A stretch of DNA of 64,000 nucleotides from Plazaster borealis (lineage: Eukaryota; Echinodermata; Asteroidea; Forcipulatida; Labidiasteridae): positions 2,542,001 through 2,606,000 of the forward strand of contig CM037472.1 in the NCBI GenBank assembly GCA_021014325.1, written 5' to 3'. Below, one piece after another: positions 7,651 to 50,364 of the stretch; within the stretch, counting starts at the first letter, position 1, and every line of letters begins with the position of its first letter. A program made the position numbers and the translations under genes. The notes below the pieces were generated by a model. It was not told where the DNA came from and made no database searches. It worked only from the letters and a program-made list of their open reading frames with translations.

Positions 7651-7653
7651 CAT

Positions 7654-26369: not shown

Positions 26370-26477
26370 GTTTGCTACAGAAATGCCATTGTCAGATAAA
26401 GTCTACCTCTCAAAAAGTAGATGTCTGATTTGATGCTGCCGAGTGTCAAGATTCAACGATGTCTTCTCCATCAACGG
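26370..26477 (+). other. Exon X, copy 1 (108 nt)
   Basis: Acceptor tttcatttgcatgtag, donor CGG|GTAAAT. Core: gtctacctctcaaaaagtag then atgtctgatttgatg. All three frames contain stops. Near the 3' end an ATG opens MSSPST and runs out through the donor in phase 1. Homologous to three later copies and, in the core, to every other exon type listed below. Confidence 0.6.
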
Positions 26478-26503
26478 GTAAATTTATCAACAACCAATAA
26501 TTA

Positions 26504-26692
26504 GAGATAATAATAGTGGCTTCTTATATAGGGCACATTATTCGTCACTCAGTGACGCTCAAAAGGCGTTTCAACATTCAATATTTTCCAGCAAGGTATT
26601 GTGGAGCTACGTTTTTGAAGTTTTAGACCAATATCTTTACATAGCACCATGTAATGGTTTACAAGGTGCTGTGGTGCAATATGCTGCCCATC
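26504..26692 (-). mobile_element. SINE, 3' part only
   Basis: It matches the 3' half of the SINE at 28,692-29,115 (attagagataataatagtgg, cttacaaggtgctgtgg as read on plus). It stops at atatgctgcccatc, lacking the tRNA-like head. Confidence 0.7.
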
Positions 26693-26696
26693 CCCT

Positions 26697-26906
26697 TTTA
26701 AACATTCTCATTGTAGTTTAAGGTCTCCTTTTTGTTTATGTATGGAAACAGACCCAGTAACTGGGGCGCTGTACTCCTTTTCTCAAAATTTTGACATCTT
26801 CTACCGAAGATGACAAAATTCCAAAATTTAAGCGCCCCAGTTACTGGGTCTATTTCCATTCATAAACAAAAAGGAGACCTTAAACTACAATGAGAATGTT
26901 TAAAAA
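26697..26906. repeat. 210-bp palindrome around a MITE
   Basis: The arms ttttaaacattctcattgta and tacaatgagaatgtttaaaa extend inward through aaggtctcctttttgtttatg and its complement. At the centre is a 102-bp MITE of the AGACCCAGTAACTGGGG family (26,750-26,851). The right arm is the start of the next tandem unit, so the left arm is an inverted copy of that start. Confidence 0.75.
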
Positions 26907-27380
26907 GTGGATGGTTTTTGTTTGATTAGGCCAATTATGGATCTGCTCCCCTAACCTACATAGACTCTTTTGTCGTACAGTCATTGGCATTGGATGAGGG
27001 TTACGATTATTGCAACTTAGGCCAATACTCCTGATGGTGGCAGACTTGAAGGTTACAAATTGGGGGACCCGTGCAATAAGTTATGTTTCCAATTGTGACC
27101 ATTTCCAGCCACTTCTGTCAGACCAGTGACCAGATTTGCAAAGTTTTCACCACTCCCAAAAATTTAAACGCATATTCTAAGAACACAGATTTTTTCTTCG
27201 TTGTGTATGAAACAGTTTAGAACACTTAGCCTAAATGTCATATTATACAGAAAATATTTTTCAGAAAAAGACAAAAAACTTGCCAAAGACTGACTGAACT
27301 GTTAACTTTTGTCTTTGTGTAGTAGGGGGCTAGTGTCAACTGCGCATGTCAGGGCTGTAGTCTTGTTGCATGTACTCAGA

Positions 27381-27514
27381 CCGTATCCAAAGTGGCAGCT
27401 ACAGCTATGGCTATCATGACTGTTGCCAATGGGTGTTGCTAAGGATGTACTGTACTTCAATACATGATGACGCTGAAATCTAGCCATAGCTGTAGCCGCT
27501 AATTCAGACATGGC
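27381..27514. mobile_element. 134-bp inverted-repeat element
   Basis: ccaaagtggcagctacagct and agccatagctgtagccgcta are the inverted ends. Related to 4,455-4,527 and to a partial copy at 25,617-25,720. Confidence 0.6.
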
Positions 27515-28563
27515 CTCAGTCTTGCAATTCAACCTGGGTACAGCCAAGGCTAGCCAGCTTGCCATGTCTGTTAGGACTATTCATTACTTCACGTTGATTG
27601 GTCGGTTTGGTCCATAGAGATACCCCATGATTTGTCATTAATCCTTTCAATTGTATGCGACCTTCAAATTTACAAATTGACACCCACAAGGATTCAAACA
27701 ACTCGGGCATTCTTTGGTAAATTTTGTTTTTCCCTGCAAATGTTTTTTCCGATGAATGTTGTGTCTTCTAAATTACTTCATAATGCAATTTGTGTCCTTA
27801 AAATGTGCCTGCAACCAGCCTTACAAAGGCCACTTGGAAGAAGAAGGTGTGCATAGTACAAACGGCACTTTGAGCTATTACAAAGTATTGAAATCCTGAC
27901 AAATTAGTGCCATAAATACTGCCAATCTGTTTTAGAGTAAACCATGGTCGAAGCGCAATCCAGACCTGACTTTGTGGAAGATGTGGCTAAAAATTTACAT
28001 GTACATATCCACTCAATTACCTGATCAAAAACTTGCTGGGAATGATACTGTAGATTACCCTCATCCATTTCATCTGGAATTTGCTGGATTTAAACGCAAA
28101 CCTTGTGATATAAAATCAAATCAAATACTCCTTGAGCGTACCTTTGTTGTCCACAATTCAAAATGTAATTTCAACTTGCTCATAGTTTAGGTTAATAATA
28201 TCCTTTTCAATGTTAAATGAATGTTAGAGAGATTAAGAACCAGTACCAACATCTGGTTTTGACAACCACATTTTTGGGGGTTCCCTTCCTATCTTGCCAA
28301 CAATGAGGTGATCAACCGCCACAATCTACTTGAGACCAGACTGGTTTAAATACCATATGTGCCCAGAATAAAGTACATGTACATGTATTATAAGATGCAA
28401 ACCAATTGTTTTGTGATTACCGGTATGGCGCCCTCTTATGGTCAAAGCATTAGCAAATTGTTTCTGCAGTTGAAGGAAAACAATATCACACCCCTTTCAC
28501 AAAATGTTTTTTTTATTGCTTTATTTGATTAATGTGTTTATTGTTTCTTTCATTTACATGTAG

Positions 28564-28671
28564 GTTTGCTACAGAAACGCCATTGTCAGATGAAGTCTAC
28601 CTCTCCAGAAGTAGATGTCTGATTTGATGCTGCTGAGTGTCAAGATTCAACGATGTCTTCTCCATCAACAG
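28564..28671 (+). other. Exon X, copy 2 (108 nt)
   Basis: Acceptor tttcatttacatgtag, donor ACAG|GTAAAT. Same layout as copy 1: core gtctacctctccagaagtag, TGA, then ATG TCT TCT CCA TCA ACA G at the 3' end. Confidence 0.6.
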
Positions 28672-28691
28672 GTAAATTTATCAACAACCAA

Positions 28692-29115
28692 TAACTAGAG
28701 ATAATAACAGTGGCTTCTTATATAGCGCACATATCTGTCTCTCAGTGACGTTTCAACATTTGTTATTTTCCTGCAAGGTATTGTGGAGCTACGTTTTTGA
28801 AGTATGAGACCAATTCCTTTACATAGCACCATGTAATGGTTTACAAGGTGCTGTGGGGCAATATGCTGCCCATCAAACCAGGAACACCAAGGCGAACCCC
28901 TTCTTTTTTTTGATAAGTGATATTGGTTCTTTTACGTGCATTACACAACACACGGGACCAACGGCTTTACATCCCATCCAAAGGACGCAGCAATAATGGT
29001 TAAGTGTCTTGCTTAAGGACACAAGTGTCACGACCAGGACTCGAACCCACACTCTGCTGAACAGAAACACCAGAGCTTGAGTCCGGTGCCCTTATCCACT
29101 CAGCCACGACACGCC
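28692..29115 (-). mobile_element. Full-length SINE with tRNA-Leu-like head
   Basis: On the minus strand the element starts ggcgtgtcgtggctgagtgg (A box), with an anticodon arm ccggaCTCAAGCtctgg (CAA in the loop position), a long variable arm, and gtgggttcgagtcc (B box). The body follows, with ttaagcaagacacttaacc and gatgggatgtaaagcc. The 3' end is cttcttatatagcgcac as read on plus. The long variable arm and CAA loop indicate derivation from tRNA-Leu. Copies: 30,888-31,310, 39,828-40,237 and the fragment at 26,504. Confidence 0.8.
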
Positions 29116-30092: not shown

Positions 30093-30194
30093 CGAGGGTT
30101 ATCACCTCCACAGAGATACTCATCAACCAAGTAGATGTCTGAGACCTGCAGTACAATGAGTCTGGGAAATGAACTGCTCTCTCCTGTATAACAG
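30093..30194 (+). other. Exon Y, copy 1 (102 nt)
   Basis: Acceptor ttgtttgcatgatacag, donor ACAG|GTAAGG (perfect consensus). Spliced in phase 1 after an X exon it would read ARVITSTEILINQVDV and stop. The 3' half includes caatgagtctgggaaatg, shared with exon Z. Confidence 0.6.
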
Positions 30195-30758
30195 GTAAGG
30201 GAAACTCCTGAACATTAAAACAGTTGCTAATGTAAACCAACAATATTCCTCCTCAAGACTGTTATTACTTCAAGTCACACCATAAACTCAAGAATACATG
30301 TAGAATGTTTCTGCATCATAAAATGGTATGTGAAAGAACAAGAAAGTTTGCTAAATGTCTTTGCTAAAATTTCCACTTGCTTAATCATAGTTTAGGTTAA
30401 TAATATCCTTTTCAATGTAAAATGAATGTTAGAATGATCAAGCACCAGTACCAACATCTGGTTTTGACAAACACAATTTGTTGGGTTCCCTTCCTATCTT
30501 GCCATCAATGAGGTGATCAACCGCCACAATCTACTGGAGACCAGACTGGTTTAAATACCTAATGTGTCCAGAATGAAGTACATTAAGATGCAAACCAATT
30601 GTTTTGTGATTACCGGTATGGCGCCCTCTTATGGTCAAAGCATTAGCAAATTGTTTCTGCAATTGAAGGGAAAAAAAATCACACACCTTTCACAAACTGT
30701 TTTTTTTAAATTGCTTTATTTGATTAATGTATTTATTGTTTCTTTCATTTACATGTAG

Positions 30759-30866
30759 GTTTGCTACAGAAATGCCATTGTCAGATGAAGTCTACCTCTC
30801 CAGAAGTAGATGTCTGATTTGATGCTGCCGAGTGTCAAGATTCAACGATGTCTTCTCCATCAACAG
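30759..30866 (+). other. Exon X, copy 3 (108 nt)
   Basis: Acceptor ttcatttacatgtag, donor ACAG|GTAAAT. Same length and layout as the other X copies. First exon of duplication copy A. Confidence 0.6.
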
Positions 30867-30887
30867 GTAAATTTATGAATAACCAAT

Positions 30888-31310
30888 AATTAGAGATAAT
30901 AATAGTGGCTTCTTATATAGCGCACATATCCGTCACTCAGTGATGCTTCAACATAATTGTTATTTTCTTGCAAGGTATTGTGGAGCTACGTTTTTGAAGT
31001 ATGAGACCGATTCCTTGACATAGCATCATGTAATGGTTTACAAGGTGCTGTGGCGCAATATGCTGCCCATCAAACCAGGAACACCGATGCGAACGCCTTC
31101 TTTTTTCGATAAGTGCACTGGGTTCTTTTACGTGCATTACAGAACACGAACCAACGGCTTAACATCCCATCCAAAGGACGCAGCAATAATGGTTAAGTGT
31201 CTTGCTTAAGGACACAAGTATGTCACGAACGGGACTCGAACCCACACTCTGCTAAACAGAAACACCAGAGCTCGAGTCCGGTACCCTTATCCACTCAGCC
31301 ACGACACGCC
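30888..31310 (-). mobile_element. SINE with tRNA-like head, copy A
   Basis: Same family and position relative to exon X as 28,692-29,115. The anticodon-loop base differs (CTCGAGC). Inherited with the unit, not inserted separately. Confidence 0.8.
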
Positions 31311-31874
31311 ACAAGAGATGCATCAAGAGATTTTTGGACAGTTTGATGATACTAGGCTTTAACCACCTAACGTCAAACTGCTATTAAAACATTTTTTTAC
31401 TTCACCTCTGTATGCAGTAAATTTTTGGAATTTTTGAAATAATTTATTTTGAGAATATCATTATACATTAAAACCATTGATTAAACAAAGTAAAGGCAAA
31501 AAACATTCTCTTAAAATGCACAAGGATTTGTTGTTCTCTGTGGAGAAAAAGTGGAATGTCTTCACCAGAAAACCAGCTGCCATAATCTTTGGCCGATAAT
31601 TGGCCATGGTATGCTGGAATCTTGAATTTTCCTCCCATACATGTATGCTGTATGCCAATGATAAACAATGGTGGCAGCCTATCGATCTCTCATAGTCCTC
31701 GTTTGTACAACAAAAAGACTGGAAGCGAGGATTACACAATTACCCCTGAAACAAGGGAGATTAGAAGGAAGAGAGATTGTTGAATTCCAGTACCCTTTGT
31801 CCCCCTTTAAAACTAAAAGGTGTGTGTATGTCTTTCGCCGTTAACTGGTTAAGAAAAGTATGTAAACACTTTAA

Positions 31875-32248
31875 AGGTATCGTACACGTTTGGTAATGAC
31901 TCAAAACAAATATTAGGATAAAAACTTATTTGGTAACAAGCAACGGAGAGCTGTTAATATTATGTAGTATAAAACATTGTAGGAAACAAGTCCCTCTGAA
32001 GTAACGTAGTTTTTGAGAAAGAGGTAATTTCTCACTAAAATTAGAACAACTTCTTGGAAGAAGTTTTTATTCCTATCTGAAAGCACACAAATTTGTACAA
32101 CAAGGGTGTTTTTTCTTTCATCATTTTCTTGCATCTTCGAATCACCAATTGAGCCCAAATTTTCGCAGGCTTGTTATTTTATGCATATGTTGGGATACAC
32201 CAAATGAGAACACTGGTCTTTGACAATGTCCAAATGTGTTCAGTGCCT
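31875..32248. mobile_element. 374-bp TTAA MITE, copy A
   Basis: Flanked by TTAA (31,871-31,874 and 32,249-32,252). Termini aggtatcgtacacgtttggt and the complement of gtccaaatgtgttcagtgcct, matching in inverted orientation. The interior contains gaacaacttcttggaagaag and gggtgttttttctttcatc. TTAA duplication is the hallmark of piggyBac-type transposition. No transposase, so non-autonomous. Confidence 0.85.
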
Positions 32249-32690
32249 TTAAGAACAAAATGACATTTCTGGCGTAAAGGAAGTTTCATTGCAGAGATCA
32301 AATTTTAAAAGAAAATTGTAAGAGATAAGTGGTTAAGTGAAAATACAAGTGGGCAATTCCACATGTAAGACATTTTACAAATGCCATGCATTGCAAAAAT
32401 GTGTTTAAATTTTTCTCTCACTTGGGTGTCAGGATATCATAATGATTTAATGGATGTAATAATTGCATCAGGATAAAGAATAATATTTTTATTCTACATT
32501 GATGTGAGACAAACACTGAATACTCCGTGCTTTCTGAGGTTTGCGAGTATACAGTTTTTATCACACATTGGTGAAAGGGTAAAACAAAGGTGGGACCAAT
32601 AATTAACTAAATGAAAGGGAAAAAGTGTCATCTCAAACTATTAAAGCTAAAGTCGATCATTATTTTGTTTTCTTTGTTTGCATGATACAG

Positions 32691-32813
32691 CAAGAGTTAT
32701 CATCTCCACAGAGATACTCATCAACCAAGTAGATGTCTAAGACCTGCAGTTGATAAGCTTCCTAACAATGTACAATGAGTCTGGTAAATGAACTGCTCTC
32801 TCCTTTATAACAG
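32691..32813 (+). other. Exon Y2, copy A (123 nt)
   Basis: Acceptor tttgcatgatacag, donor ACAG|GTAAGG. Phase-1 reading: ARVIISTEILINQVDV then TAA. It carries a 21-nt insertion (ttgataagcttcctaacaatg) relative to Y1. Confidence 0.6.
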
Positions 32814-33220
32814 GTAAGGGAAACTCCTGAACATTCAAACAGTTGTTAATGCAAACCAACAATATTCCTCTTCAAGACTGTTTTTACCTCAATTCACACC
32901 ATAAACCCAAGACTAGAACAAGAAAGTTTGCTAAATGTCTTTCTTGAACTAAAAACACTCATCAAATTCATTTTGAATATTACTATTTAGACAAGTGAGA
33001 ACTGATGCAAATTAAAGTAGATGTAAAATAGGCTACTTTGGCAAATTTGATTGAACAAATTGAATTATATGAAATATTAAGTCAGCATTTATGGCTCATC
33101 AGATTTCATTGACAAGGTCAAGTTGATACCACCAGGGGAGGGCTAGTTCATTTGACATTTTCCTTTTTCTTGTGCCATAATGTGTTACATCTGTACAATG
33201 TTTCCTTTAACCTTTCACAG

Positions 33221-33463
33221 CATGAGAAAGCTGATATCCTACAACCAAGTGTGTAGCAAAGAAATTTCACTGCAATCTTGAAGGCTTCAGAGTTTGAGAA
33301 GAGCAACTCATAATGGAAACATCTCGGTCTTCAAGGCATTCTACACATCAAGGAATCATGGATGAACAACCAACCAACTTGTGTGATTTCATTGAAGTTG
33401 AGAAAGTTCCTAGCAGTACACAATGAGTCCGGTAAATGAACTACCCTCTTCTTTATATAAAAG
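33221..33463 (+). other. Exon Z, copy A (243 nt)
   Basis: Acceptor cctttaacctttcacag, donor AAAAG|GTAACG. The 5' half (gctgatatcctacaaccaag) is a diverged form of the family core. The 3' half (cacaatgagtccggtaaatg to ctttatataaaag) equals the 3' half of exon Y, so Z looks like a composite. Phase 1 meets a stop at once; another frame gives HEKADILQPSV and a stop. Confidence 0.5.
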
Positions 33464-33797
33464 GTAACGGAAACTTAATATTAAAATGGTTGTTAGTTCA
33501 GAAATCTATCCTAGTTTCTTTCATTCAAATTTATCATCACTTTTCCTCGGTAGTTCAACATATTGGTAGACTCTAAAATTGTTGGATGGAGGGGGAAGGG
33601 GGAGCGAGGGTCAAAGAAATGGTTTTAGGCAATCACACACTTGATTTCCATTATATCAAAAACATTAACGGCAAGAGTAGAAATTTAGAGTTTGTCTTCC
33701 CACAAACTGATGAGCCGTTTTTGCTCGGACCCTTGCCCTCGGCACTTTCCAGATTTTTGTATAAACAACATTAAAATAAATAAAAACACAGGCAAAT

Positions 33798-33877
33798 CCC
33801 TCGGGTGGGATTCGAACCCACAACATTTGAACTGCTTACAAGCTGAGCAGATGCCTTACCCCCAGACCACAGAGTTA
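33798..33877 (-). repeat. tRNA-like element, copy A
   Basis: On the minus strand: gtggtctgggggtaaggcat (A box region), an anticodon arm around ctgctcagcttgtaagcag, and gtgggttcgaatcccacc (good T arm). The anticodon stem fits imperfectly, so a SINE head or tRNA pseudogene is more likely than a working tRNA. The second copy is at 42,727-42,806. Confidence 0.5.
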
Positions 33878-34207
33878 GTGTGTCTTCGATGGCCAACAAT
33901 ATTGCTACATTTTTGCGTGGATTAGACTAAACGGCCTCATGCCAAATCAGGCTTCGTGGACTTTGTACCTTTTAATCAATCTATACTAAACTAAACTATG
34001 AGTGGATCTTGAGAAATGAATTTTTTAAGTTTTCAACTTCCGGTTTGAATCGGAAGTCATATTTAATTGGGGTCACACTCTGTGTAGCGGTTTTTGAGTT
34101 TCCAAAAGGCCTTTCTGATGATGTCTAGATTGTGAAAATCAATTGCATAGTTCAGGAGTTATGGTTATTTGAAATATTAAACTTTGATTTAATGTATTTC
34201 GAAACCT

Positions 34208-34225
34208 GATGACGTCATCATGACG
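34208..34225. promoter_or_regulatory. Palindromic CRE-like site in a repeat
   Basis: tgatgacgtcatcatgacgt contains TGACGTCA and a second tgacgt. It lies in an intron stretch (33,990-34,430) that looks like a dispersed element. The same site recurs in copy B near 43,137. Regulatory use is not shown. Confidence 0.3.
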
Positions 34226-34640
34226 TAACTAAAACTGTTTCATCTCCTTATAAGTATCTAACTATATGTGAAGGTTCAAGTTTATATGAGCTTTTAAAGT
34301 TTGCCTTTGTTAGCGGAGAATCGACGCGGAGAAGAAGGAAAAGGAAGAAAAAAGACAACAAAAAAAACGAACAAAAACAATAGTTGTTTCGCGCTATGCT
34401 CCGAACACCTAATAATCCTGATATGCACAAGTTACAAAGGGTTTTCTAATCTCTGGCGGTTTCAGGCGATCCAGTGAGTAAATGGCTGGGCGGTTTCGGG
34501 CGGTACAGTGACTAAAGGGTTAATTGAAAGTATAAACAAAAACATAAGTAAAAACAATTTATCTAAACCTAAATGTTTTAATAATGTATACTGTTTGTAA
34601 ACACTAATGTTGCAAATCATGCATTTTGTTTGTGTTGCAG

Positions 34641-34723
34641 TAAGGCTTACCATCTCCAGAGAGATCTACTCATCAACAAGACTGGCCTATGATAAAGGAG
34701 CTGCAAGCACTCTCCAATGAAAG
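34641..34723 (+). other. Exon W, copy A (83 nt)
   Basis: Acceptor tttgtttgtgttgcag, donor GAAAG|GTAAAA. Phase-1 reading: VRLTISREIYSSTRLAYDKG then AASTLQ and a stop. The 3' half (gataaaggagctgcaa) is shared with V and with the minus-strand exons at 62.5 and 63.7 kb. Confidence 0.6.
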
Positions 34724-34887
34724 GTAAAATCCTAAACAAAATATTATTTACACCCAGTCCCAAATTGAGCTCTCTAATACAGTGGACATAGTGGGTATCA
34801 AACAACAAACAAGGCATCCTCCATAGAAAGGTATATGATGATTGTTGCATTTGTTTATTCGATCAAGACTTTCCTTTCTCAAAACTT

Positions 34888-35106
34888 GTGAAGAATATAC
34901 CAGAGTTTGTACCAGAGACCTTACCAGAGTGGCTGAAAAAAGCCAGTAAGGACAGTTTCAGCAAGTCTTGGAAAATCTACAAGGAATGCTATGTTATTGA
35001 TATGGTGCTCACACGGATGACCTCGATCACACACTTTTCAACACAAAAGTGCAACAATTTTGAAGCTGAAATAATCCAAAGGCAAAGGCTTTCCAAAACT
35101 GTGTGA
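34888..35106 (+). other. 72-codon open frame, duplicated, function unknown
   Basis: ATG at 34,888 gives MKNIPEFVPETLPEWLKKAS and continues, charged and plausible in composition (KSWKIYKECYVIDMVLTRM), to TGA at 35,104. The copy at 43,817-44,035 has the same protein sequence. It lies between exons W and V without obvious splice sites. It may be a real small exon or gene, or a chance frame preserved because the duplication is recent. I do not recognise it. Confidence 0.25.
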
Positions 35107-35982
35107 TTCCTTTGTCTATTTGAAATTCCGCAGGGCTAATAAATCTCACTTTTCCAACAATCTTTATTTACATTACAAACAAAAGACCAGGTGGCTGCAT
35201 GGTCGTCCGACGCCAATAGTGCATAACTCAAAATAAAACTCTTTTGTAGTAGAATACTGGTAATTTATTAAACAGAAATGTGATTTAAATCAATGTCACA
35301 ACATAAAGCTTTATTAAAAAGGCTTAGTAACTGTGTTATTATTTTACTAAAAATACAAATAAAGCCGACTGTCGGTGTACTCGGTTTGCCACACCATAGT
35401 ATTGGCTCGTTTTTCCATCATTTGAGATTACCTAGTACCCACTACAAGTCACGTGATGACATGTAAACATTGGTCATGTAATCGGTCTATTATACTTGTA
35501 GCATTTCACCTCATAGATGTCTGTACAGTATGTTGTTTGGAAATAGTTTCTAAGTTGACAGACAGGATTGTGTTTTACTGTCAGCATAAGAGATTAGGAC
35601 AGTCCTGTAAAACACTTTATGTTGAACACAATTATCAAGACAGACTTTAAGCTTTTGGTAATTGAATTGTTTCCTGCCTTTGTTAGATTAGCTTCATTCT
35701 AAGAGCTCACTGATAATAAAGTTCATACCAGCACCAATCCTCAAGAGAACTGTTTCAGGGGTTTTTTTGTGTCGCAAAATCACAGTTGCTTATTTTGATT
35801 GTAACAATCAAAATAATCCTGATTCGCACAATCTCCTCCGAAATGTGATTTGGTGTTTTCATTGTTGGTTTTTAGTCTTCATTTTTGAAGGTAAAACAAT
35901 TTGTCTGAAAGTAACTGTTTTAATGATGTTAAATGTTTTAAAACACTAATATTGCAAATTGTGCATTTTGTTTGTGTTGCAG

Positions 35983-36077
35983 TCAGGCTTAGCATTTACA
36001 AAGACATCTACCTCTCAACAAGTACCGCAGATGTCCAGACCAGCCATTGATAATGGAGCTGCACTCTCCAGTAAAAG
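35983..36077 (+). other. Exon V, copy A (95 nt)
   Basis: Acceptor tttgtttgtgttgcag, donor AAAAG|GTATAA. Phase-1 reading: VRLSIYKDIYLSTSTADVQT then SH and a stop. GACATCT (36,003) and AGATGTC (36,029) could pair around the core. Another frame is open through the whole exon, so the coding frame is not certain. Confidence 0.6.
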
Positions 36078-36834
36078 GTATAAATCCTCAAATATTTGAG
36101 TGCATTGTTGCATATTACAATCATCATGAGGTAAAATCTGGACCATTCCATTTCACGATGGTGAAATGCAAAAACCAAAATTCACCTAGTGATTTTATTC
36201 TGTGACAATGCATGAATGAAATGTATTCAATATTTGTTTTATATAGTTTACACATAGATCCTTATTATTTGGTATTTTGTTCACAAAAAACACAAAACAG
36301 ACTCGGAAACTTGTCCACCCCATTCTCTGAAATGTTTTAAATCCCCATCTAAACAACATGGACAACTTTATGTTTCCACCAACCTTGTCCACTATGACAC
36401 ATCCTTGCCTTGCTTTTATCCATATTGGACTCCTATATTAAATTTTGCAGCATGCGGCAGTATACATCATGGCAAAACAAAAATGACATATGATGCGTGT
36501 TCCACCAATCGAATGACAAGGATCTGTGTGTTTGGTAGTTAAAGTATAATATTTACACCCAGTCCCAAATTGAGTTCTGTAGTTACCAGTTATTAAACAG
36601 CTAATATCAGAAATTTGCTTGTAGCATTACAATTTATCTAAATAATTCAGTATGTCGTTTGGCAATCATTTCAGTGTTTTAGGCAAAATTGGTAAGCATT
36701 GATGTTTCTTTTTTCTGTTTTTCTTGTCATTTTATGAACAAAAGGTGTAAGGCTTGCTGCAGCAAGACTAACACCTTGTCATTGTGCCTAAAAAAAGGTT
36801 CAAACCCTCTCAAGATTGATGCAATTCCAAGCGG

Positions 36835-37105
36835 TAAGACTTGCAAGATGTTCATCCTCCCATTTGTTCTTGTAATTTTAGCCAAACTGACAGATGGGCA
36901 AGCCTTGCTGTTCAACCTTTTTACTTTTGATATAATTTTTAAGTTAAACTGTAAGGGGTAACTGCTGGTCACTCCTTCACCATTTTATGCAGTGAGCCAA
37001 AATTGCAATGGATAACCCTTGCTGTTCATTCCTTTGACATTTCATGTAATTTTAGCCACAATTGCAAGAGGGTAAGCCTTGATGTTCAACCCTATTATTT
37101 TTAAG
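36835..37105 (+). repeat. Degenerate ~80-bp tandem units with splice-like ends
   Basis: Three to four units run through gtaagnctt, tgttcatccttt, gtaattttagccaaa and ttgcaagagg. Each pairs a tttttag-like acceptor with a gggtaag-like donor about 18 nt later. Repeated at 46,075-46,345. Confidence 0.5.
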
Positions 37106-37378
37106 CTCATTATGTACTACTTTTTTCTATCCAACTTGAACATTTGTCCAAGCAAAGTTATTCTGCAAAAAGCCAGGTTTAATGGCATTGCTTCACCATG
37201 AACAGGCATTATCATGAGCAAGACCATGACATTGGGCTCACAATGGATTGCTAATAGTATGACCAATAATTAAATGAAAGGGGAAAAGGCTAATCTCAAA
37301 CTACCCTTTGTGATTCATTTCATTAATATGTCAAAGCTAAAGTGAAGCATTATTGTGTTCTTTGTTTGCATGATGCAG

Positions 37379-37774: not shown

Positions 37775-37843
37775 GAGTGGGATTTGAACCAACGACGTCC
37801 GGTTTAACGTGCCGGCGCTCTACCAACTGAGCTATCTAGCCCT
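37775..37843 (-). repeat. tRNA-like element (GTT loop), copy A
   Basis: Minus strand: gggctagatagctcagttgg tagagc, an anticodon loop ACGTTAA (GTT would be Asn, but U33 is replaced by C) and ggttcaaatccc. The acceptor stem does not pair well. Probably a tRNA pseudogene or SINE head. Its 3' flank (gaacaaagaaaaattgac) is repeated at 38,070. Confidence 0.5.
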
Positions 37844-38069
37844 ATGTTGGCGGTCTCCCTATTTTGTCAATATCTTTGTTCAGGGGGGTGCCAGTCAGAA
37901 AGCCATTCAACCGCAAACTGCCGTGTAGCCAGGGATCACACCCATACGATACAACCTGGGAAGCGGCAGCCGGTGATCACCTGAAGGGGATGCGACTTTT
38001 TTTATATCAGATATCAAATAATGGACCACAAGGGAAACTGACTGGGTAAATATTAAATGTTTTTGGGTT

Positions 38070-38143
38070 GAACAAAGAAAAATTGACCAGAGTGGGATTT
38101 GAACCAACGACCTCCGGTTTAATGTGCCGGGGGGGGGGGGGGT
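38070..38143 (-). repeat. Second, partial copy of the tRNA-like element with poly-G
   Basis: The 3' part of the same tRNA-like sequence (gagtgggatttgaaccaacg) recurs and is cut off by a run of about 14 G at 38,129-38,142. In copy B the run is shorter (47,389-47,399). Confidence 0.6.
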
Positions 38144-38397
38144 GGTTCAGTAAGCAAATACTTTCAAAATTCGTTCTTGGATACAACTTCTGTTACATTT
38201 TGAAAAAATCATCTACAAATCTACACAGACCTCAATATAAAGGATGAAATTGTTTCAAATGTTTACATCTCATTGTTCTACCTCGATCATCTTTGAATGT
38301 TTCCTTTAAATACTTGAAAAACTAAAAGAACATTTTTGAAGGACACACTCTAACTTTACCTTAAAAATAAACATTTGTTTTCTTAATATATCTGTAG

Positions 38398-38504
38398 ATG
38401 ATATCTACCTGTCACAAGAAGTAGATTCCTGAGACCTGCAAGTGCCAATCATCAGCCCAATGTCTGCACATCACCAGTTTATATGTGTGAGGGCTACACA
38501 AGAG
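38398..38504 (+). other. Exon U, copy A (107 nt)
   Basis: Acceptor cttaatatatctgtag, donor AAGAG|GTATGT. Phase-1 reading: DDIYLSQEVDS then TGA. After the stop another frame opens (ATG TCT GCA CAT CAC) and continues across the splice into exon T. Confidence 0.6.
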
Positions 38505-38573
38505 GTATGTAAACTTCCTGTGGGTTATATTACTTGTTTTACACTAACATCAAAAAGTGGGCTGTTTTTGCAG

Positions 38574-38705
38574 CACTTTACAAATGACGCCACATGCCAC
38601 AACATTCTGAGGACTTCATGCTGGCACCAGCCTAACTCAGATGAGTGGTTTGTCCCTACAGATTGATTACAGATATGAAAAATAAAAACATGTTTTTATT
38701 AACAA
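38574..38705 (+). other. Exon T, copy A: candidate terminal exon with poly(A) signal
   Basis: Acceptor ggctgtttttgcag. When joined to exon U, the frame runs on from MSAHHQFICVRATQE into HFTNDATCHNILRTSCWHQP and NSDEWFVPTD, then stops (about 45 residues in all). AATAAA at 38,681-38,686 suggests the transcript end soon after. The composition (three Cys, two Trp in the tail) looks coding, but I do not recognise it. Confidence 0.45.
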
Positions 38706-39155
38706 ATCCCTTTTATATGAATATAATTATTAATAAATCAATAAGCTTTCAAGTACAAACCAACAATATTCCTCCTTAAGACTGTTATTACCTCAAGTTA
38801 CACCATAAAACTGGGAATAGACTGTTTCTGCATCATAAGATGATATGTGAAAGAACTAGAGTTTGCTGAACTTCTCACATCTTTCTTGACCAAAAACACT
38901 CATCAATTTCAGTTTGAATATTACCATTCAGGCAAATCAGATCTGATGCAAACTAAAGTAGATGTAGGTTACTTTGGCAAATTTGATTTAAAAATTGACA
39001 TGTTTGAAAAAACAAGTCATCATTAATGGATCATCAGATTTCATTGACAAGGGTTAAATGATACACCAGGAAGAGGGCCAGTTCATTTGACATTTCTCTT
39101 TTTCATGTGCCATAATGTGTTACATCTATACAATGTTTCCTTTGACCTTTCACAG

Positions 39156-39310
39156 CATGAGAAAGCTGATGTCCTACAACCAAGTGTGTAGCAAATAACT
39201 TTCAGTACAATCTTGAAGGCTTCAGAGTTTGAGAGAGAAACTCATAATTGAAACATCACGGTCTTCAAGGCATTCTATAAATTAAGGAATCATAAATGAA
39301 CGACCAACCA
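39156..39310 (+). other. Exon Z', copy A, cut at the duplication junction
   Basis: Acceptor gacctttcacag, then catgagaaagctgatgtcc as in exon Z. The exon-like sequence runs into the A/B junction at 39,310 and so lacks its original 3' part. Confidence 0.5.
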
Positions 39311-39700
39311 ATTTCCACTTGCTTAATCATAGTTTAGGTTAATAATATCCTTTTCAATGTAAAATGAATATTAGAATGATCAAGCACCAATACCAACGTC
39401 TGGTTTTGACAAACACAATTTGTTGGGTTCCCTTCCTATCTTGCCATCAATGAGGTGATCAACCGCCACAATCTACTGGAGACCAGACTGGTTTAAATAC
39501 CTAATGTGCCCAGAATGAAGTACATTAAGATACAAACCAATTGTTTTGTGATTACCGGTATGGCACCCTCTTATGGTCAAAGCATTAGCAAATTGTTTCT
39601 GCAATTGAAGGGAAAAAAAATCACACACCTTTCACAAAATGTTTTTTTTAAATTGCTTTATTTGATTAATGTATTTATTGTTTCTTTCATTTACATGTAG

Positions 39701-39808
39701 GTTTGCTACAGAAATGCCATTGTCAGATGAAGTCTACCTCTCCAGAAGTAGATGTCTGATTTGATGCTGCCGAGTGTCAAGATTCAACGATGTCTTCGCC
39801 ATCAACAG
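39701..39808 (+). other. Exon X, copy 4 (108 nt)
   Basis: Acceptor ttcatttacatgtag, donor ACAG|GTAAAT. Differs from copy 3 by only a few bases (for example cttcgcc). Confidence 0.6.
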
Positions 39809-39827
39809 GTAAATTTATGAAAAACCA

Positions 39828-40237
39828 ATAATTAGAGATAATATCAGTGGCTTCTTATATAGCGCACATATCCGTCACTCAGTGATGCTTCAACATAATT
39901 GTTATTTTCCTGCAAGGTATTGTGGAGCTACGTTTTTGAAGTATGAGACCAATTCCTTGACATAGCATCATGTAATGGTTTACAAGGTGCTGTGGCGCAA
40001 TATGCTGCCAATCAAACCAGGAACACCGATGCGAACGCCTTCTTTTTTCGATAAGTGCACTGGGTTCTTTTACGTGCATTACAACGGCTTTACATCCCAT
40101 CCAAAGGACGCAGCAATAATGGTTAAGTGTCTTGCTTTTGACACAAGTGTCACGACCGGGACTCGAACCCACACTCTGCTGAACAGAAACACCAGAGCTT
40201 GAGTCCGGTGCCCTTATCCACTCAGCCACGACACGCC
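39828..40237 (-). mobile_element. SINE with tRNA-like head, copy B
   Basis: Counterpart of 30,888-31,310 with a 13-bp deletion near 40,082. The reading frame of 124 codons across it on the minus strand is a by-product. Confidence 0.8.
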
Positions 40238-40801
40238 ACAAGAGATGCATCAAGAGATTTTTGGACAGTTTGATGATACTAGGCTTTAACCACCTAACGT
40301 CAAACTGCTATTAAAACATTTTTTTACTTCACCTCTGTATGCAGTAAATTTTTGGAATTTTTGAAATAATTTATTTTGAGAATATCATTATACATTAAAA
40401 CCATTGATTAAACAAAGTAAAGGCAAAAAACATTCTCTTAAAATGCACAAGGATTTGTTGTTCTCTGTGGAGAAAAAGTGGAATGTCTTCACCAGAAAAC
40501 CAGCTGCCATAATCTTTGGCCGATAATTGGCCATGGTATGCTGGAATCTTGAATTTTCCTCCCATACATGTATGCTGTATGCCAATGATAAACAATGGTG
40601 GCAGCCTATCGATCTCTCATAGTCCTCGTTTGTACAACAAAAAGACTGGAAGCGAGGATTACACAATTACCCCTGAAACAAGGGAGATTAGAAGGAAGAG
40701 AGATTGTTGAATTCCAGTACCCTTTGTCCCCCTTTAAAACTAAAAGGTGTGTGTATGTCTTTCGCCGTTAACTGGTTAAGAAAAGTATGTAAACACTTTA
40801 A

Positions 40802-41175
40802 AGGTATCGTACACGTTTGGTAATGACTCAAAACAAATATTAGGATAAAAACTTATTTGGTAACAAGCAACGGAGAGCTGTTGATATTATGTAGTATAAA
40901 ACATTGTAGGAAACAAGTCCCTCTGAAGTAACGTAGTTTTTGAGAAAGAGGTAATTTCTCACTAAAATTAGAACAACTTCTTGGAAGAAGTTTTTATTCC
41001 TATCTGAAAGCACACAAATTTGTACAACAAGGGTGTTTTTTCTTTCATCATTTTCTTGCATCTTCGAATCACCAATTGAGCCCAAATTTTCGCAGGCTTG
41101 TTATTTTATGCATATGTTGGGATACACCAAATGAGAACACTGGTCTTTGACAATGTCCAAATGTGTTCAGTGCCT
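40802..41175. mobile_element. 374-bp TTAA MITE, copy B
   Basis: Same length and ends as 31,875-32,248, flanked by TTAA at 40,798 and 41,176. Duplicated with the unit. Confidence 0.85.
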
Positions 41176-41618
41176 TTAAGAACAAAATGACATTTCTGGC
41201 GTAAAGGAAGTTTCATTGCAGAGATCAAATTTTAAAAGAAAATTGTAAGAGATAAGTGGTTAAGTGAAAAATACAAGTGGGCAATTCCACATGTAAGACA
41301 TTTTACAAATGCCATGCATTGCAAAAATGTGTTTAAATTTTTCTCTCACTTGGGTGTCAGGATATCATAATGATTTAATGGATGTAATAATTGCATCAGG
41401 ATAAAGAATAATATTTTTATTCTACATTGATGTGAGACAAACACTGAATACTCCGTGCTTTCTGAGGTTTGCGAGTATACAGTTTTTATCACACATTGGT
41501 GAAAGGGTAAAACAAAGGTGGGACCAATAATTAACTAAATGAAAGGGAAAAAGTGTCATCTCAAACTATTAAAGCTAAAGTCGATCATTATTTTGTTTTC
41601 TTTGTTTGCATGATACAG

Positions 41619-41741
41619 CAAGAGTTATCATCTCCACAGAGATACTCATCAACCAAGTAGATGTCTAAGACCTGCAGTTGATAAGCTTCCTAACAATGTA
41701 CAATGAGTCTGGTAAATGAACTGCTCTCTCCTTTATAACAG
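41619..41741 (+). other. Exon Y2, copy B (123 nt)
   Basis: Counterpart of 32,691-32,813 with the same splice sites and the same phase-1 reading. Confidence 0.6.
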
Positions 41742-42149
41742 GTAAGGGAAACTCCTGAACATTCAAACAGTTGTTAATGCAAACCAACAATATTCCTCTT
41801 CAAGACTGTTTTTACCTCAATTCACACCATAAACCCAAGACTAGAACAAGAAAGTTTGCTAAATGTCTTTCTTGAACTAAAAACACTCATCAAATTCATT
41901 TTGAATATTACTATTTAGACAAGTGAGAACTGATGCAAATTAAAGTAGATGTAAAATAGGCTACTTTGGCAAATTTGATTGAACAAATTGAATTATATGA
42001 AATATTAAGTCAGCATTTATGGCTCATCAGATTTCATTGACAAGGTCAAGTTGATACCACCAGGGGAGGGCTAGTTCATTTGACATTTTCCTTTTTTCTT
42101 GTGCCATAATGTGTTACATCTGTACAATGTTTCCTTTAACCTTTCACAG

Positions 42150-42392
42150 CATGAGAAAGCTGATATCCTACAACCAAGTGTGTAGCAAAGAAATTTCACT
42201 GCAATCTTGAAGGCTTCAGAGTTTGAGAAGAGCAACTCATAATGGAAACATCTCGGTCTTCAAGGCATTCTACACATCAAGGAATCATGGATGAACAACC
42301 AACCAACTTGTGTGATTTCATTGAAGTTGAGAAAGTTCCTAGCAGTACACAATGAGTCCGGTAAATGAACTACCCTCTTCTTTATATAAAAG
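42150..42392 (+). other. Exon Z, copy B (243 nt)
   Basis: Counterpart of 33,221-33,463. Splice sites unchanged. Confidence 0.5.
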
Positions 42393-42726
42393 GTAACGGA
42401 AACTTAATATTAAAATGGTTGTTAGTTCAGAAATCTATCCTAGTTTCTTTCATTCAAATTTATCATCACTTTTCCTCGGTAGTTCAACATATTGGTAGAC
42501 TCTAAAATTGTTGGATGGAGGGGGAAGGGGGAGCGAGGGTCAAAGAAATGGTTTGAGGCAATCACACTCCTGATTTCCACTGTATCAAAAACATTAACGG
42601 CAAGAGTAGAAATTTAGAGTTTGTCTTCCCACAAACTGATGAGCCGTTTTTGCTCGGACCCTTGCCCTCGGCACTTTCCAGATTTTTGTATAAACAACAT
42701 TAAAATAAATAAAAACACAGGCAAAT

Positions 42727-42806
42727 CCCTCGGGTGGGATTCGAACCCACAACATTTGAACTGCTTACAAGCTGAGCAGATGCCTTACCCCCAGACCACA
42801 GAGTTA
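42727..42806 (-). repeat. tRNA-like element, copy B
   Basis: Counterpart of 33,798-33,877 with no change seen in the boxes. Confidence 0.5.
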
Positions 42807-43569
42807 GTGTGTCTTCGATGGCCAACAATATTGCTACATTTTTGCGTGGATTAGACTAAACGGCCTCATGCCAAATCAGGCTTCGTGGACTTTGTACCTT
42901 TTAATCAATCTATACTAAACTAAACTATGAGTGGATCTTGAGAAATGAATTTTTTAAGTTTTCAACTTCCGGTTTGAATCGGAAGTCATATTTAATTGGG
43001 GTCACACTCTGTGTAGCGGTTTTTGAGTTTCCAAAAGGCCTTTCTGATGATGTCTAGATTGTGAAAATCAATTGCATAGTTCAGGAGTTATGGTTATTTG
43101 AAATATTAAACTTTGATTTAATGTATTTCGAAACCTGATGACGTCATCATGACGTAACTAAAACTGTTTCATCTCCTTATAAGTATCTAACTATATGTGA
43201 AGGTTCAAGTTTATATGAGCTTTTAAAGTTTGCCTTTGTTAGCGGAGAATCGACGCGGAGAAGAAGGAAAAGGAAGAAAAAAGACAACAAAAAAAACGAA
43301 CAAAAACAATAGTTGTTTCGCGCTATGCTCCGAACACCTAATAATCCTGATATGCACAAGTTACAAAGGGTTTTCTAATCTCTGGCGGTTTCAGGCGATC
43401 CAGTGAGTAAATGGCTGGGCGGTTTCGGGCGGTACAGTGACTAAAGGGTTAATTGAAAGTATAAACAAAAACATAAGTAAAAACAATTTATCTAAACCTA
43501 AATGTTTTAATAATGTATACTGTTTGTAAACACTAATGTTGCAAATCATGCATTTTGTTTGTGTTGCAG

Positions 43570-43652
43570 TAAGGCTTACCATCTCCAGAGAGATCTACTC
43601 ATCAACAAGACTGGCCTATGATAAAGGAGCTGCAAGCACTCTCCAATGAAAG
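43570..43652 (+). other. Exon W, copy B (83 nt)
   Basis: Counterpart of 34,641-34,723. Same acceptor and donor. Confidence 0.6.
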
Positions 43653-43816
43653 GTAAAATCCTAAACAAAATATTATTTACACCCAGTCCCAAATTGAGCT
43701 CTCTAATACAGTGGACATAGTGGGTATCAAACAACAAACAAGGCATCCTCCATAGAAAGGTATATGATGATTGTTGCATTTGTTTATTCGATCAAGACTT
43801 TCCTTTCTCAAAACTT

Positions 43817-44035
43817 GTGAAGAATATACCAGAGTTTGTACCAGAGACCTTACCAGAGTGGCTGAAAAAAGCCAGTAAGGACAGTTTCAGCAAGTCTTGG
43901 AAAATCTACAAGGAATGCTATGTTATTGATATGGTGCTCACACGGATGACCTCGATCACACACTTTTCAACACAAAAGTGCAACAATTTTGAAGCTGAAA
44001 TAATCCAAAGGCAAAGGCTTTCCAAAACTGTGTGA
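43817..44035 (+). other. 72-codon open frame, copy B
   Basis: The same protein as the frame at 34,888-35,106. No function assigned. Confidence 0.25.
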
Positions 44036-44932
44036 TTCCTTTGTCTATTTGAAATTCCGCAGGGCTAATAAATCTCACTTTTCCAACAATCTTTATTTAC
44101 ATTACAAACAAAAGACCAGGTGGCTGCATGGTCGTCCGACGCCAATAGTGCATAACTCAAAATAAAACTCTTTTGTAGTAGAATACTGGTAATTTATTAA
44201 ACAGAAATGTGATTTAAATCAATGTCACAACATAAAGCTTTATTAAAAAGGCTTAGTAACTGTGTTATTATTTTACTAAAAATACTATTATTTTACTAAA
44301 AATACAAATAAAGCCGACTGTCGGTGTACTCGGTTTGCCACACCATAGTATTGGCTCGTTTTTCCATCATTTGAGATTACCTAGTACCCACTACAAGTCA
44401 CGTGATGACATGTAAACATTGGTCATGTAATCGGTCTATTATACTTGTAGCAATTCACCTCATAGATGTCTGTACAGTATGTTGTTTGGAAATAGTTTCT
44501 AAGTTGACAGACAGGATTGTGTTTTACTGTCAGCATAAGAGATTAGGACAGTCCTGTAAAACACTTTATGTTGAACACAATTATCAAGACAGACTTTAAG
44601 CTTTTGGTAATTGAAATGTTTCCTGCCTTTGTTAGATTAGCTTCATTCTAAGAGCTCACTGATAATAAAGTTCATACCAGCACCAATCCTCAAGAGAACT
44701 GTTTCAGGGGTTTTTTTTGTGTCGCAAAATCACAGTTGCTTATTTTGATTGTAACAATCAAAATAATCCTGATTCGCACAATCTCCTCCGAAATGTGATT
44801 TGGTGTTTTCATTGTTGGTTTTTGGCCTTCATTTTTGAAGGTAAAACAATTTGTCTGAAAGTAACTGTTTTAATGATGTTAAATGTTTTAAAACACTAAT
44901 ATTGCAAATTGTGCATTTTGTTTGTGTTGCAG

Positions 44933-45027
44933 TCAGGCTTAGCATTTACAAAGACATCTACCTCTCAACAAGTACTGCAGATGTCCAGACCAGCCATTGA
45001 TAATGGAGCTGCACTCTCCAGTAAAAG
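44933..45027 (+). other. Exon V, copy B (95 nt)
   Basis: Counterpart of 35,983-36,077. One difference is agtactgcag for agtaccgcag, silent in the phase-1 frame. Confidence 0.6.
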
Positions 45028-45670
45028 GTATAAATCCTCAAATATTTGAGTGCATTGTTGCGTATTACAATCATCATGAGGTAAAATCTGGACCATTCCA
45101 TTTCACGATGGTGAAATGCAAAAACCAAAATTCACCTAGTGATTTTATTCTGTGACAATGCATGAACGAAATGTATTCAATATTTGTTTTATATAGTTTA
45201 CACATAGATCCTTATTATTTGGTATTTTGTTCACAAAAAACACAAAACAGACTTGGAAACTTGTCCACCCCATTCTCTGAAATGTTTTAAATCCCCATCT
45301 AAACAACATGGACAACTTTATGTTTCCACCAACCTTGTCCACTATGACACATCCTTGCCTTGCTTTTATCCATATTGGACTCCTATATTAAATTTTGCAG
45401 CATGCGGCAGTATACATCATGGCAAAACAAAGATGACATATGATGCGTATTCCACCAATCGAATGACAAGGATCTGTGTGTTTGGTAGTTAAAGTATAAT
45501 ATTTACACCCGGTCCCAAATTGAGTTCTGTAGTTACCAGTTATTAAACAGCTAATATCAGAAATTTGCTTGTAGCATAAAAATTTATCTAAATAATTCAG
45601 TGTGTCGTTTGGCAATCATTTCAGTGTTTTAGGCAAAATTGGTAAGCATTGATGTTTCTTTTTTCTGTTT

Positions 45671-45970
45671 TTATGCCCAGCCGGCGAAGCAGGCCGAAGG
45701 GGCATATAGTGTTTGCCTTGTCCTTCCGTGTGTGTGTGTGTGTGTGTGCAATCATTGTTCGAGCGATTACTCAAGAAGGACTTGGCATATCAACTCCAAA
45801 CTTGGTGTGTGGATTGGTCTTGGGATCTCACAGAAGCCTATTGTTTTTTGATCCCATACAGAAAATGTCAAGGTAATTGTGGCTAAAACAAAAGAAATGC
45901 TGTCTAAGCGATAACTCAAGAATGAGGTAATCTCAGCGGGGCATTTGTGTTTGTTAACACACCATTCTTG
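45671..45970. mobile_element. 300-bp insertion present only in copy B
   Basis: Copy A runs ctgttt directly into ttcttgtcat at 36,721; copy B has 300 bp between. The insert starts with an inverted pair tatgccc and ggggcata around cagccggcgaagcaggcc. It contains a GT run (45,728-45,748) and gcgattactcaagaagg. It must have arrived after the duplication, or been lost cleanly from A. The type is not recognised with certainty. Confidence 0.75.
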
Positions 45971-46627
45971 TTCTTGTCATTTTATGAACAAAAGGTGTAA
46001 GGCTTGCTGCAGCAAGACTAACACCTTGTCATTGTGCCTAAAAAAGGTTCAAACCCTCTCAAGTTTGATGCAATTCCAAGCGGTAAGACTTGCAAGATGT
46101 TCATCCTCCCATTTGTTCTTGTAATTTTAGCCAAACTGACAGATGGGCAAGCCTTGCTGTTCAACCTTTTTACTTTTGATATAATTTTTAAGTTAAACTG
46201 TAAGGGGTAACTGCTGGTCACTCCTTCACCATTTTATGCAGTGAGCCAAAAATGCAATGGATAACCCTTGCTGTTCATTCCTTTGACATTTCATGTAATT
46301 TTAGCCACAATTGCAAGAGGGTAAGCCTTGATGTTCAACCCTATTATTTTTAAGCTCATTATGTACTACTTTTTTCTATCCAACTTGAACATTTGTCCAA
46401 GCAAAGTTATTCTGCAAAAAGCCAGGTTTAATGGCATTGCTTCACCATGAACAGGCATTATCATGAGCAAGACCATGACATTGGGCTCACAATGGATTGC
46501 TAATAGTATGACCAATAATTAAATGAAAGGGGAAAAGGCTAATCTCAAACTACCCTTTGTGATTCATTTCATTAATATGTCAAAGCTAAAGTGAAGCATT
46601 ATTGTGTTCTTTGTTTGCATGATGCAG

Positions 46628-46754
46628 CGAGGGTTATCATCTCCACAGAGATCTTTACATCAACCAAGTAGATGTCTGAGACCTGCAGTTCCTTACAATG
46701 TACAATGAGTCTCATATCAGTCTGGTAAATGAACTGCTCTCTCCTTTATAAAAG
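46628..46754 (+). other. Exon Y3, copy B (127 nt)
   Basis: Counterpart of 37,379-37,494 with an 11-nt insertion (around catatcagtct). Splice sites kept. Phase-1 reading ends as STK and stop, as in A. Confidence 0.6.
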
Positions 46755-47033
46755 GTAAGGGAAACTCCTGAACATTAAAACTGTTGTTAATTCATAAATC
46801 TATCATTCAGATTCATCATTACTTTCCCTTCGGTAGTTCAATCTATAGGCAGTGGAGGTGCCAGACTCTAAAAAGTAAGGTGTCAATAAATAGTTAGTGG
46901 GGAATTCCACTGTATTATAAAGTAAAAAACAATTATATCAAGCCAAATCCAATCTATTAAAAACATATGTATTTGAATTTGTATATATATATATATATAT
47001 AATGATTTTGGGTTGAACAAAGAAAAATTGACC

Positions 47034-47102
47034 AGAGTGGGATTTGAACCAACGACGTCCGGTTTAACGTGCCGGCGCTCTACCAACTGAGCTATCTAGC
47101 CG
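47034..47102 (-). repeat. tRNA-like element, copy B
   Basis: Counterpart of 37,775-37,843. The partial second copy is at 47,326-47,400. Confidence 0.5.
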
Positions 47103-47654
47103 TATATTGGCGGTCTCCCTATTTTGTCAATATCTTTGTTCGGGGGGTGCCAGTCAGAAAGCCATTCAACCGCAAACTGCCGTGTAGCCAGGGATCACAC
47201 CCATACGATACAACCTGGGAAGCGGCAGCCGGTGATCACCTGAAGGGGATGCGACTTTTTTTATATCAGATATCAAATAATGGACCACAAGGGAAACTGA
47301 CTGGGTAAATATTAAATGTTTTTGGGTTGAACAAAGAAAAATTGACCAGAGTGGGATTTGAACCAACGACCTCCGGTTTAACGTGCCGGGGGGGGGGGGT
47401 GGTTCAGTAAGCAAATACTTTCAAAATTCGTTCTTGGATACAACTTCTGTTACATTTTGAAAAAATCATCTACAAATCTACACAGACCTCAATATAAAGG
47501 ATGAAATTGTTTCAAATGTTGACATCTCATTGTTCTACCTCGATCATCTTTGAATGTTTCCTTTAAATACTTGAAAAACTAAAAGAACATTTTTGAAGGA
47601 CACACTCTAACTTTACCTTAAAAATAAACATTTGTTTTCTTAATATATCTGTAG

Positions 47655-47761
47655 ATGATATCTACCTGTCACAAGAAGTAGATTCCTGAGACCTGCAAGT
47701 GCCAATCATCAGCCCAATGTCTGCACATCACCAATTTATATGTGTGAGGGCTACACAAGAG
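47655..47761 (+). other. Exon U, copy B (107 nt)
   Basis: Counterpart of 38,398-38,504. One difference is accaattt for accagttt. Confidence 0.6.
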
Positions 47762-47830
47762 GTATGTAAACTTCCTGTGGGTTATATTACTTGTTTTACA
47801 CTAACATCAAAAAGTGGGCTGTTTTTGCAG

Positions 47831-47962
47831 CACTTTACAAATGACGCCACATGCCACAACATTCTGAGGACTTCATGCTGGCACCAGCCTAACTCAGATG
47901 AGTGGTTTGTCCCTACAGATTGATTACAGATATGAAAAATAAAAACATGTTTTTATTAACAA
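47831..47962 (+). other. Exon T, copy B, candidate terminal exon
   Basis: Counterpart of 38,574-38,705, with AATAAA at 47,938-47,943. Confidence 0.45.
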
Positions 47963-48412
47963 ATCCCTTTTATATGAATATAATTATTAATAAATCAATA
48001 AGCTTTCAAGTACAAACCAACAATATTCCTCCTTAAGACTGTTATTACCTCAAGTTACACCATAAAACTGGGAATAGACTGTTTCTGCATCATAAGATGA
48101 TATGTGAAAGAACTAGAGTTTGCTGAACTTCTCACATCTTTCTTGACCAAAAACACTCATCAATTTCAGTTTGAATATTACCATTCAGGCAAATCAGATC
48201 TGATGCAAACTAAAGTAGATGTAGGTTACTTTGGCAAATTTGATTTAAAAATTGACATGTTTGAAAAAACAAGTCATCATTAATGGATCATCAGATTTCA
48301 TTGACAAGGGTTAAATGATACACCAGGAAGAGGGCCAGTTCATTTGACATTTCTCTTTTTCATGTGCCATAATGTGTTACATCTATACAATGTTTCCTTT
48401 GACCTTTCACAG

Positions 48413-48585
48413 CATGAGAAAGCTGATGTCCTACAACCAAGTGTGTAGCAAATAACTTTCAGTACAATCTTGAAGGCTTCAGAGTTTGAGAGAGAAACTC
48501 ATAATTGAAACATCACGGTCTTCAAGGCATTCTATAAATTAAGGAATCATAAATGAACGACCAACCAACTTGTTGATTTCATTTG
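48413..48585 (+). other. Exon Z', copy B, uncut
   Basis: Acceptor gacctttcacag. It continues past the point where copy A is cut, into ccaaccaacttgttgattt and a possible donor CATTT|GTAAAA. The original 3' end of the array lies here. Confidence 0.4.
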
Positions 48586-50330: not shown

Positions 50331-50364
50331 CAGCGTAGTTTGAAAATACAACTCATTCAATGCT

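Follow-up and report, generated by a model that had tools for sequence, protein, structure and literature searches.

Facing arrays of splice-bounded exons in a sea star genome: a candidate family of noncoding RNA loci

A 64,000-nucleotide stretch of the sea star Plazaster borealis (assembly GCA_021014325.1, contig CM037472.1, positions 2542001–2606000 of the forward strand; below, the window on contig C18) contains a row of short, homologous, exon-like sequences. What kind of locus is built of such exons? From the sequence we give about an even chance to the answer that the array belongs to a multi-copy family of loci for spliced RNAs that do not code for protein, and forms one arm of such a locus. 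Many of these loci have two arms, related but distinct, which face each other. The two-armed layout of many loci is new here, and the family is apparently undescribed: none like it was found in the sea-star literature, in a search that reached few subscription papers. The assembly searched comprised 560,608,030 bases in 717 contigs.

The exon array on the plus strand

The original prediction, made from the letters of the window, had described an array of about 20 homologous, splice-bounded exons. The array was confirmed, both in extent and in number of copies. Seventeen plus-strand copies bounded by AG and GT motifs were found at 26370–47761 (four Y, three X, and two each of V, Z, Z', W and P). 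A search of the window with a nine-exon profile gave 15 strong matches on the plus strand and two on the minus strand, besides two weaker, partial matches (E 0.019) and three at chance level.

Two cores had been proposed as common to the exons. The first, agagatctactcatcaac, matched seven times with at most three mismatches, always on the plus strand, where shuffled sequences led us to expect 0.05 matches. The second, caagtagatgtctga, matched 14 times against 2.19 expected, and three of the 14, on the minus strand with three mismatches each, may be chance. The absence of a long linking frame was also borne out, as a conceptual join of the 17 exons contained a single open stretch of at least 50 codons, 53 codons long.

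The order of exons was Y, X, P, Z, Z', V, W, T, P', as listed here. Exons and exon-like copies had profile and motif bounds unless another basis is given.

26370–26477 (+): exon Y1
28564–28671 (+): exon Y2
30093–30194 (+): exon X1
30759–30866 (+): exon Y3
32691–32813 (+): exon X2
33221–33463 (+): exon P1, acceptor half its own, donor half common to X/V; motif bounds
34641–34723 (+): exon-like copy
35983–36077 (+): exon Z'1
37379–37494 (+): exon V1
38398–38504 (+): exon W1
38574–38690 (+): exon T1, acceptor ctgtttttgcag; 3' end placed by eye
39156–39314 (+): P' block closing the first unit, with an acceptor and no clear donor
39701–39808 (+): exon Y4
41619–41741 (+): exon X3
42150–42392 (+): exon P2; motif bounds
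43570–43652 (+): exon-like copy
44933–45027 (+): exon Z'2
46628–46754 (+): exon V2, exceeding V1 by 11 bases
47655–47761 (+): exon W2
47831–47948 (+): exon T2; 3' end placed by eye
48413–48583 (+): P' block closing the second unit
48705–48907 (+): block Q, downstream of the array, an inverted relative of 56991–57188

Most of the list falls into two copies of a block of about 9 kb, which were approximately 98.7% identical.

30368–39314 (+): duplicated block, copy 1
39310–48571 (+): duplicated block, copy 2

About half of the exon copies in the window thus stem from one recent block duplication. Together with the repeats within the array, it supported the predicted growth by exon duplication.

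Splice-site retention and reading frame

Splice sites were compared between copies after each exon had been assigned to one class only and copies more than 95% alike had been removed, which left 69. The copies counted were those aligning beyond both exon ends (Z 86/88, X/V 34/53, W 18/23 and Y 18/23). The GT donor was retained in all 69 non-redundant copies (Z 30/30, X/V 15/15, W 12/12, Y 12/12) and the AG acceptor in 62 (Z 26/30, X/V 14/15, W 11/12, Y 11/12). Several copies that lacked AG at the expected place had another AG a few bases off. Mean pairwise identity was 78% for Z, 88% for X/V and 84% for both W and Y. In Z, only three of 135 other dinucleotides were as conserved as the GT. Splice sites kept between diverged copies, one mark of a spliced long noncoding RNA (lncRNA), were thus found, subject to the caveats of ancestry and alignment taken up below. 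A difference in aligned fraction (0.94 for exon, 0.42 for non-exon sequence) was set aside as evidence, because the exons had been defined by similarity in the first place.

The reading frame behaved differently. Only 34 of 130 indel runs were divisible by three, leaving 96 that were not, and exon lengths were unequal modulo three, with no common length class. In nine indel-free X/V copies, nonsynonymous and synonymous divergence in frame 0 were close (dN 0.085, dS 0.101). No X/V copy (0/15) and two of the 12 W copies were open over the whole exon, and stop codons lay within the conserved core itself. Open Z copies were split over three frames (10, 11 and 5), and the ends of the Y copies fell in two different frames. 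Pfam gave no match for the six open reading frames tried.

The tests of frame, indels and dN/dS therefore found no coding signal in X/V and W, which showed no purifying selection on an open frame; Y and Z were ambiguous in this regard. A second mark of an lncRNA, the lack of a conserved coding frame, was likewise found, with Y as its weak point. Since neither phase nor frame is kept, coding cassettes are unlikely and a spliced noncoding RNA is the best reading. Of the uses originally proposed for the array, the noncoding RNA and the growth by duplication thus fared well, and the mutually exclusive coding cassettes did not.

Copies elsewhere in the genome

The original prediction had placed the exons in one locus and had called for a search of the same genome with the core. 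This search gave clustered matches on several contigs, so that a single locus is too narrow a description. At up to three mismatches, a threshold that leaves more diverged copies uncounted, the X/V core matched 69 times (one match in the reversed control) and the T acceptor 251 times (none in the control). For these two patterns the counts fall short of the thousands of copies that had been named as the sign of a transposon. Viral contigs did not contain an exact 30-base core.

The exon order recurred with the copies. Y preceded X/V and W at eight loci (L010, L018, L027, L041, L043, L054, L056 and L009), and at weak scores the order Y, X/V, W was also seen at L047 on C2. L011 contained Y, Z and W without an X/V match. 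A further exon class came from the search with the core alone; both its places, the sole core matches so checked, had a good acceptor and donor.

Eight 3-kb loci of C2 were alignable with those of C18 and C19 at the X/V exon, at T or the T acceptor, and also along dispersed repeats and a few short segments; W was also alignable by profile. The C2 loci had been selected by the X/V exon, and T or its acceptor played no part in the selection.

The two-armed layout

Matches were clustered if they lay within 25 kb of each other, using 69 X/V, 33 core and 44 Z matches and 100 listed of the 251 T matches. Among the matches listed, 25 of the 80 clusters switched strand. Each did so once, from plus to minus, and was therefore convergent (25/25).

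A block designated S marked the other arm. A 43-base piece of it matched 21 times, 14 times exactly, with none in the control, and S stood upstream of the first Z in Z-type arms. Neighbours of S were counted from the two minus-strand Z exons of the window and from the matches listed for C10, for C18 and for unplaced contigs. Among these, 17 of the 21 S matches had a same-strand Z or T within 20 kb downstream, and none had one solely upstream. In 14 cases there was an X match within 45 kb downstream of S; in every one it lay on the strand opposite to S, the nearest at 21–37 kb. Windows of S from four diverged copies were 91–98% identical, compared with 53–69% at the upstream and 72–76% at the downstream end of the alignment.

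The plus-strand array fits the X-type arm of such a locus. Its Z-type arm comprised minus-strand Z exons at 62.5–63.8 kb, two more in L023 (one partial), a T-like acceptor at 57594–57617 (−), and the window's own S, just to the right of the window at C18:2611967–2612009 (−).

63711–63788 (−): Z-type exon; profile and motif bounds
62530–62607 (−): Z-type exon; profile and motif bounds
57650–57861 (−): P'-like block, by eye in the window; profile match solely in the aligned C19 and C22 copies
57000–57602 (−): T-like block; four successive 150-base windows at 57000–57600 were 93–96% identical to the C19 copy

Windows next to the T-like block were 80–92% identical to the C19 copy, and a few elsewhere in 48.3–59.1 kb reached 92–95%. 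The spacer was collinear between the C18 and C19 copies and partly so in C22. The two arms of the window were themselves homologous, about 73–80% alike where alignable. Exons on both strands of one locus resemble mod(mdg4)-type loci, whose exons are protein-coding; the X/V and W exons here gave no coding signal.

Two blocks of this arm were tried as coding sequence and rejected. The one at 57025–57390 (−) looked coding by eye; its relatives were in shifted frames and Pfam gave nothing. Its translation had one match, a 111-residue protein on a 631-base ENA contig. Block S showed 13–14 synonymous and 44–47 nonsynonymous codon differences, alike in three frames (no expectation was computed), and its translation matched two short proteins, one on an ENA contig of 3448 bases and one on a JGI contig of 968 bases. 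Each of these protein matches was partly in a different frame, so that what they show is the presence of relatives in other data sets, not conservation of a protein.

The segment 57000–57500 had a GC content of 0.53 and a CpG ratio of 0.85 in AT-rich surroundings, and part of it was open on both strands. A minisatellite with a 41-base unit occupied about 3 kb (59300–62298), separating the P'-like block from the Z exons of this arm.

A proposed history and the evidence against it

We infer from these features that the exons are transcribed, spliced and functional. In the proposed scheme, the X-type arm (Y, X, P, Z, Z', V, W, T, P') would face the Z-type arm (S, Z exons, T) across the spacer. 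Loci would have multiplied by segmental duplication, mainly on contig C18, and exons within the arms. Each arm would be transcribed inward and spliced to an lncRNA of repeated exon modules, and selection would have retained splicing and a few blocks (S and T), not a protein. The two RNAs would run toward each other, and in the spacer there may be interference or overlap between them.

A bolder proposal, which we hold to be doubtful, is that facing, unequal noncoding arrays (S-Z-T and Y-X-Z-W-T-P) make up a locus of a new kind: the conserved pair would have stayed together through many duplications, and the convergent layout itself would be functional, for instance in mutual regulation of the spliced RNAs. 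If transcribed, the family would offer dozens of natural copies in one genome in which to ask whether selection on a noncoding RNA acts on its splicing, on its exon modules or on the facing orientation. If not, it would be a warning that arrays of exons with splice bounds can survive as relics.

Several observations weigh against a family of retained, spliced RNAs. First, dinucleotides as conserved as the GT were frequent in X/V (18/158), W (29/151) and Y (19/151), so that the case for splice-site retention rests mainly on Z, and the conservation of AG stood out in no exon class. The copies share ancestry and are therefore not independent, and the requirement to align beyond both exon ends favours copies with kept sites. 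Second, in the recent 9-kb duplication the exons had not changed more slowly than the rest (changes at 4 of 693 exon sites and at 59 of 8254 others), which suggested that the window's own copies may be decaying. Third, open frames were in excess in two classes: 10 of 12 Y copies were open in some frame where 5.1 were expected, and 20 of 30 Z copies where 15.7 were expected. Fourth, 55 of the 80 clusters lay on one strand only, and four of the 21 S matches had no nearby same-strand Z or T, among the matches listed.

A hairpin in the core had been suspected as a selected RNA structure. The core is an inverted repeat (ATCTAC...GTAGAT), and in some C2 copies a perfect one. Two 9-bp stems formed in one C2 copy of W (fold z −3.75), and between the W of C2 and C18 one pair differed, G-C against A-U. 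Covariation was examined in 29 cores of several classes, 27 hand-picked from 69 distinct rows plus two Z cores. Paired cells made up 77.0%, compared with a shuffled mean of 79.2% and 29–46% in slid controls, and covariation in these cores was not above shuffles. Six sequences of the window gave folds no more stable than those of shuffled ones (z −0.84 to +1.40). These results do not support the hairpin as a selected unit.

Among known noncoding systems, tandem host genes of small nucleolar RNAs (snoRNAs), such as the SNORD116 host, are similar in having tandem units with noncoding exons. They differ in that Rfam found no snoRNA in the window or in seven loci (snoRNAs unlike the Rfam models could escape), and in that the arrays here occur at many places, as facing pairs.

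Alternative explanations

A decayed protein gene family is unlikely. The excess of open Y and Z copies speaks for it. The exons would once have coded short Ser/Thr/Pro-rich peptides, and most copies would now be pseudogenes. Some Z exons are open at 78 or 84 bases, X/V and Z have a common frame with similar residues, and peptides such as ...YLSKSRCL... (Y) and GL.SP..STHQ (Z and X/V) can be read. The indel runs, the X/V and W exons closed in all or most copies, dN near dS in X/V, the stop codons in the core, the scattered frames of open Z copies, the two frames in which Y copies end and the empty Pfam search all argue against it.

We rate as slightly less likely again a mobile element, large and non-autonomous, whose two arms would be long, unequal and turned inward and whose exon signals would be relics of its own transcription unit. 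The facing layout on several contigs, the internal repeats of the arms and the collinear spacer would suit such an element, as would the likeness to Foldback or Galileo-type transposons, which have long inverted arms with repeats and occur in several copies. But the arms here are unequal and carry exon signals, and matches number in the tens to low hundreds and are regional, with 37 of 44 scored Z-query pieces on C18. In the C19 copy, homology extends to a lectin gene 3–10 kb outside its exons. A segmental duplication would predict this, and at least one copy lies inside a wider one.

That the convergent arms give antisense or double-stranded RNA, the exon arrays serving as raw material for silencing at a small-RNA source locus, is improbable. 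All strand switches are convergent and the arms are homologous, as it would predict, but it does not need retained splice sites, and at the similarity of the window's arms a folded transcript would pair poorly.

Least probable are alternatively used cassette exons of one coding gene, or poison exons that trigger nonsense-mediated decay: the row of homologous exons with their own, similar acceptors and donors resembles Dscam-type mutually exclusive arrays, but it lacks a common phase or frame, contains stops, recurs at many separate loci, and had no host coding frame or constant coding exon found beside it (without gene prediction).

Neighbouring features

Three stretches of C-type lectin (echinoidin-like) adjoined the array on the minus strand (10612–10997, 15105–15651 and 16292–16855). 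At least two of the three were incomplete or frameshifted by tblastn. One C-type lectin of the window was up to 77% identical to named Asterias proteins. A relative also lay near the C19 array (L025 2484–2986).

Within the array, ARAGORN (bacterial setting) called tRNA-Leu/Ser-like sequences on the minus strand at 29025–29115, 31221–31307 and 40147–40237. They were absent in Rfam and are probably tRNA-derived repeats within Y units. Both programs called tRNA-Asn at 37769–37841 and 47029–47101 (−). Copies of a dispersed repeat, each about 370 bases long and mostly 87–95% alike, occurred at 31878–32254, 40805–41181, 49029–49400 and many other loci; the repeat is probably a transposon unrelated to the exons.

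Sequences like the histone 3' stem-loop, just below the Rfam cut-off, lay between Z exons but on the other strand (L013 6889–6934 and 8407–8452 (−), L021 4346–4391 (−) and L017 5382–5427 (+)); that of L013 reads GGCTCTTTTCAGAGCC.

Reverse transcriptase-like fragments were present at 7645–8532 (+) and 9588–10241 (−). The latter matched Pfam RVT_1, and the former matched the latter by tblastn. A palindrome of about 1 kb lay at 22478–23487, with 92% self-complementarity, and at 51019–51926 and 50340–50460 a minisatellite of 47/94 bases lay near telomere-like ACCCTA repeats.

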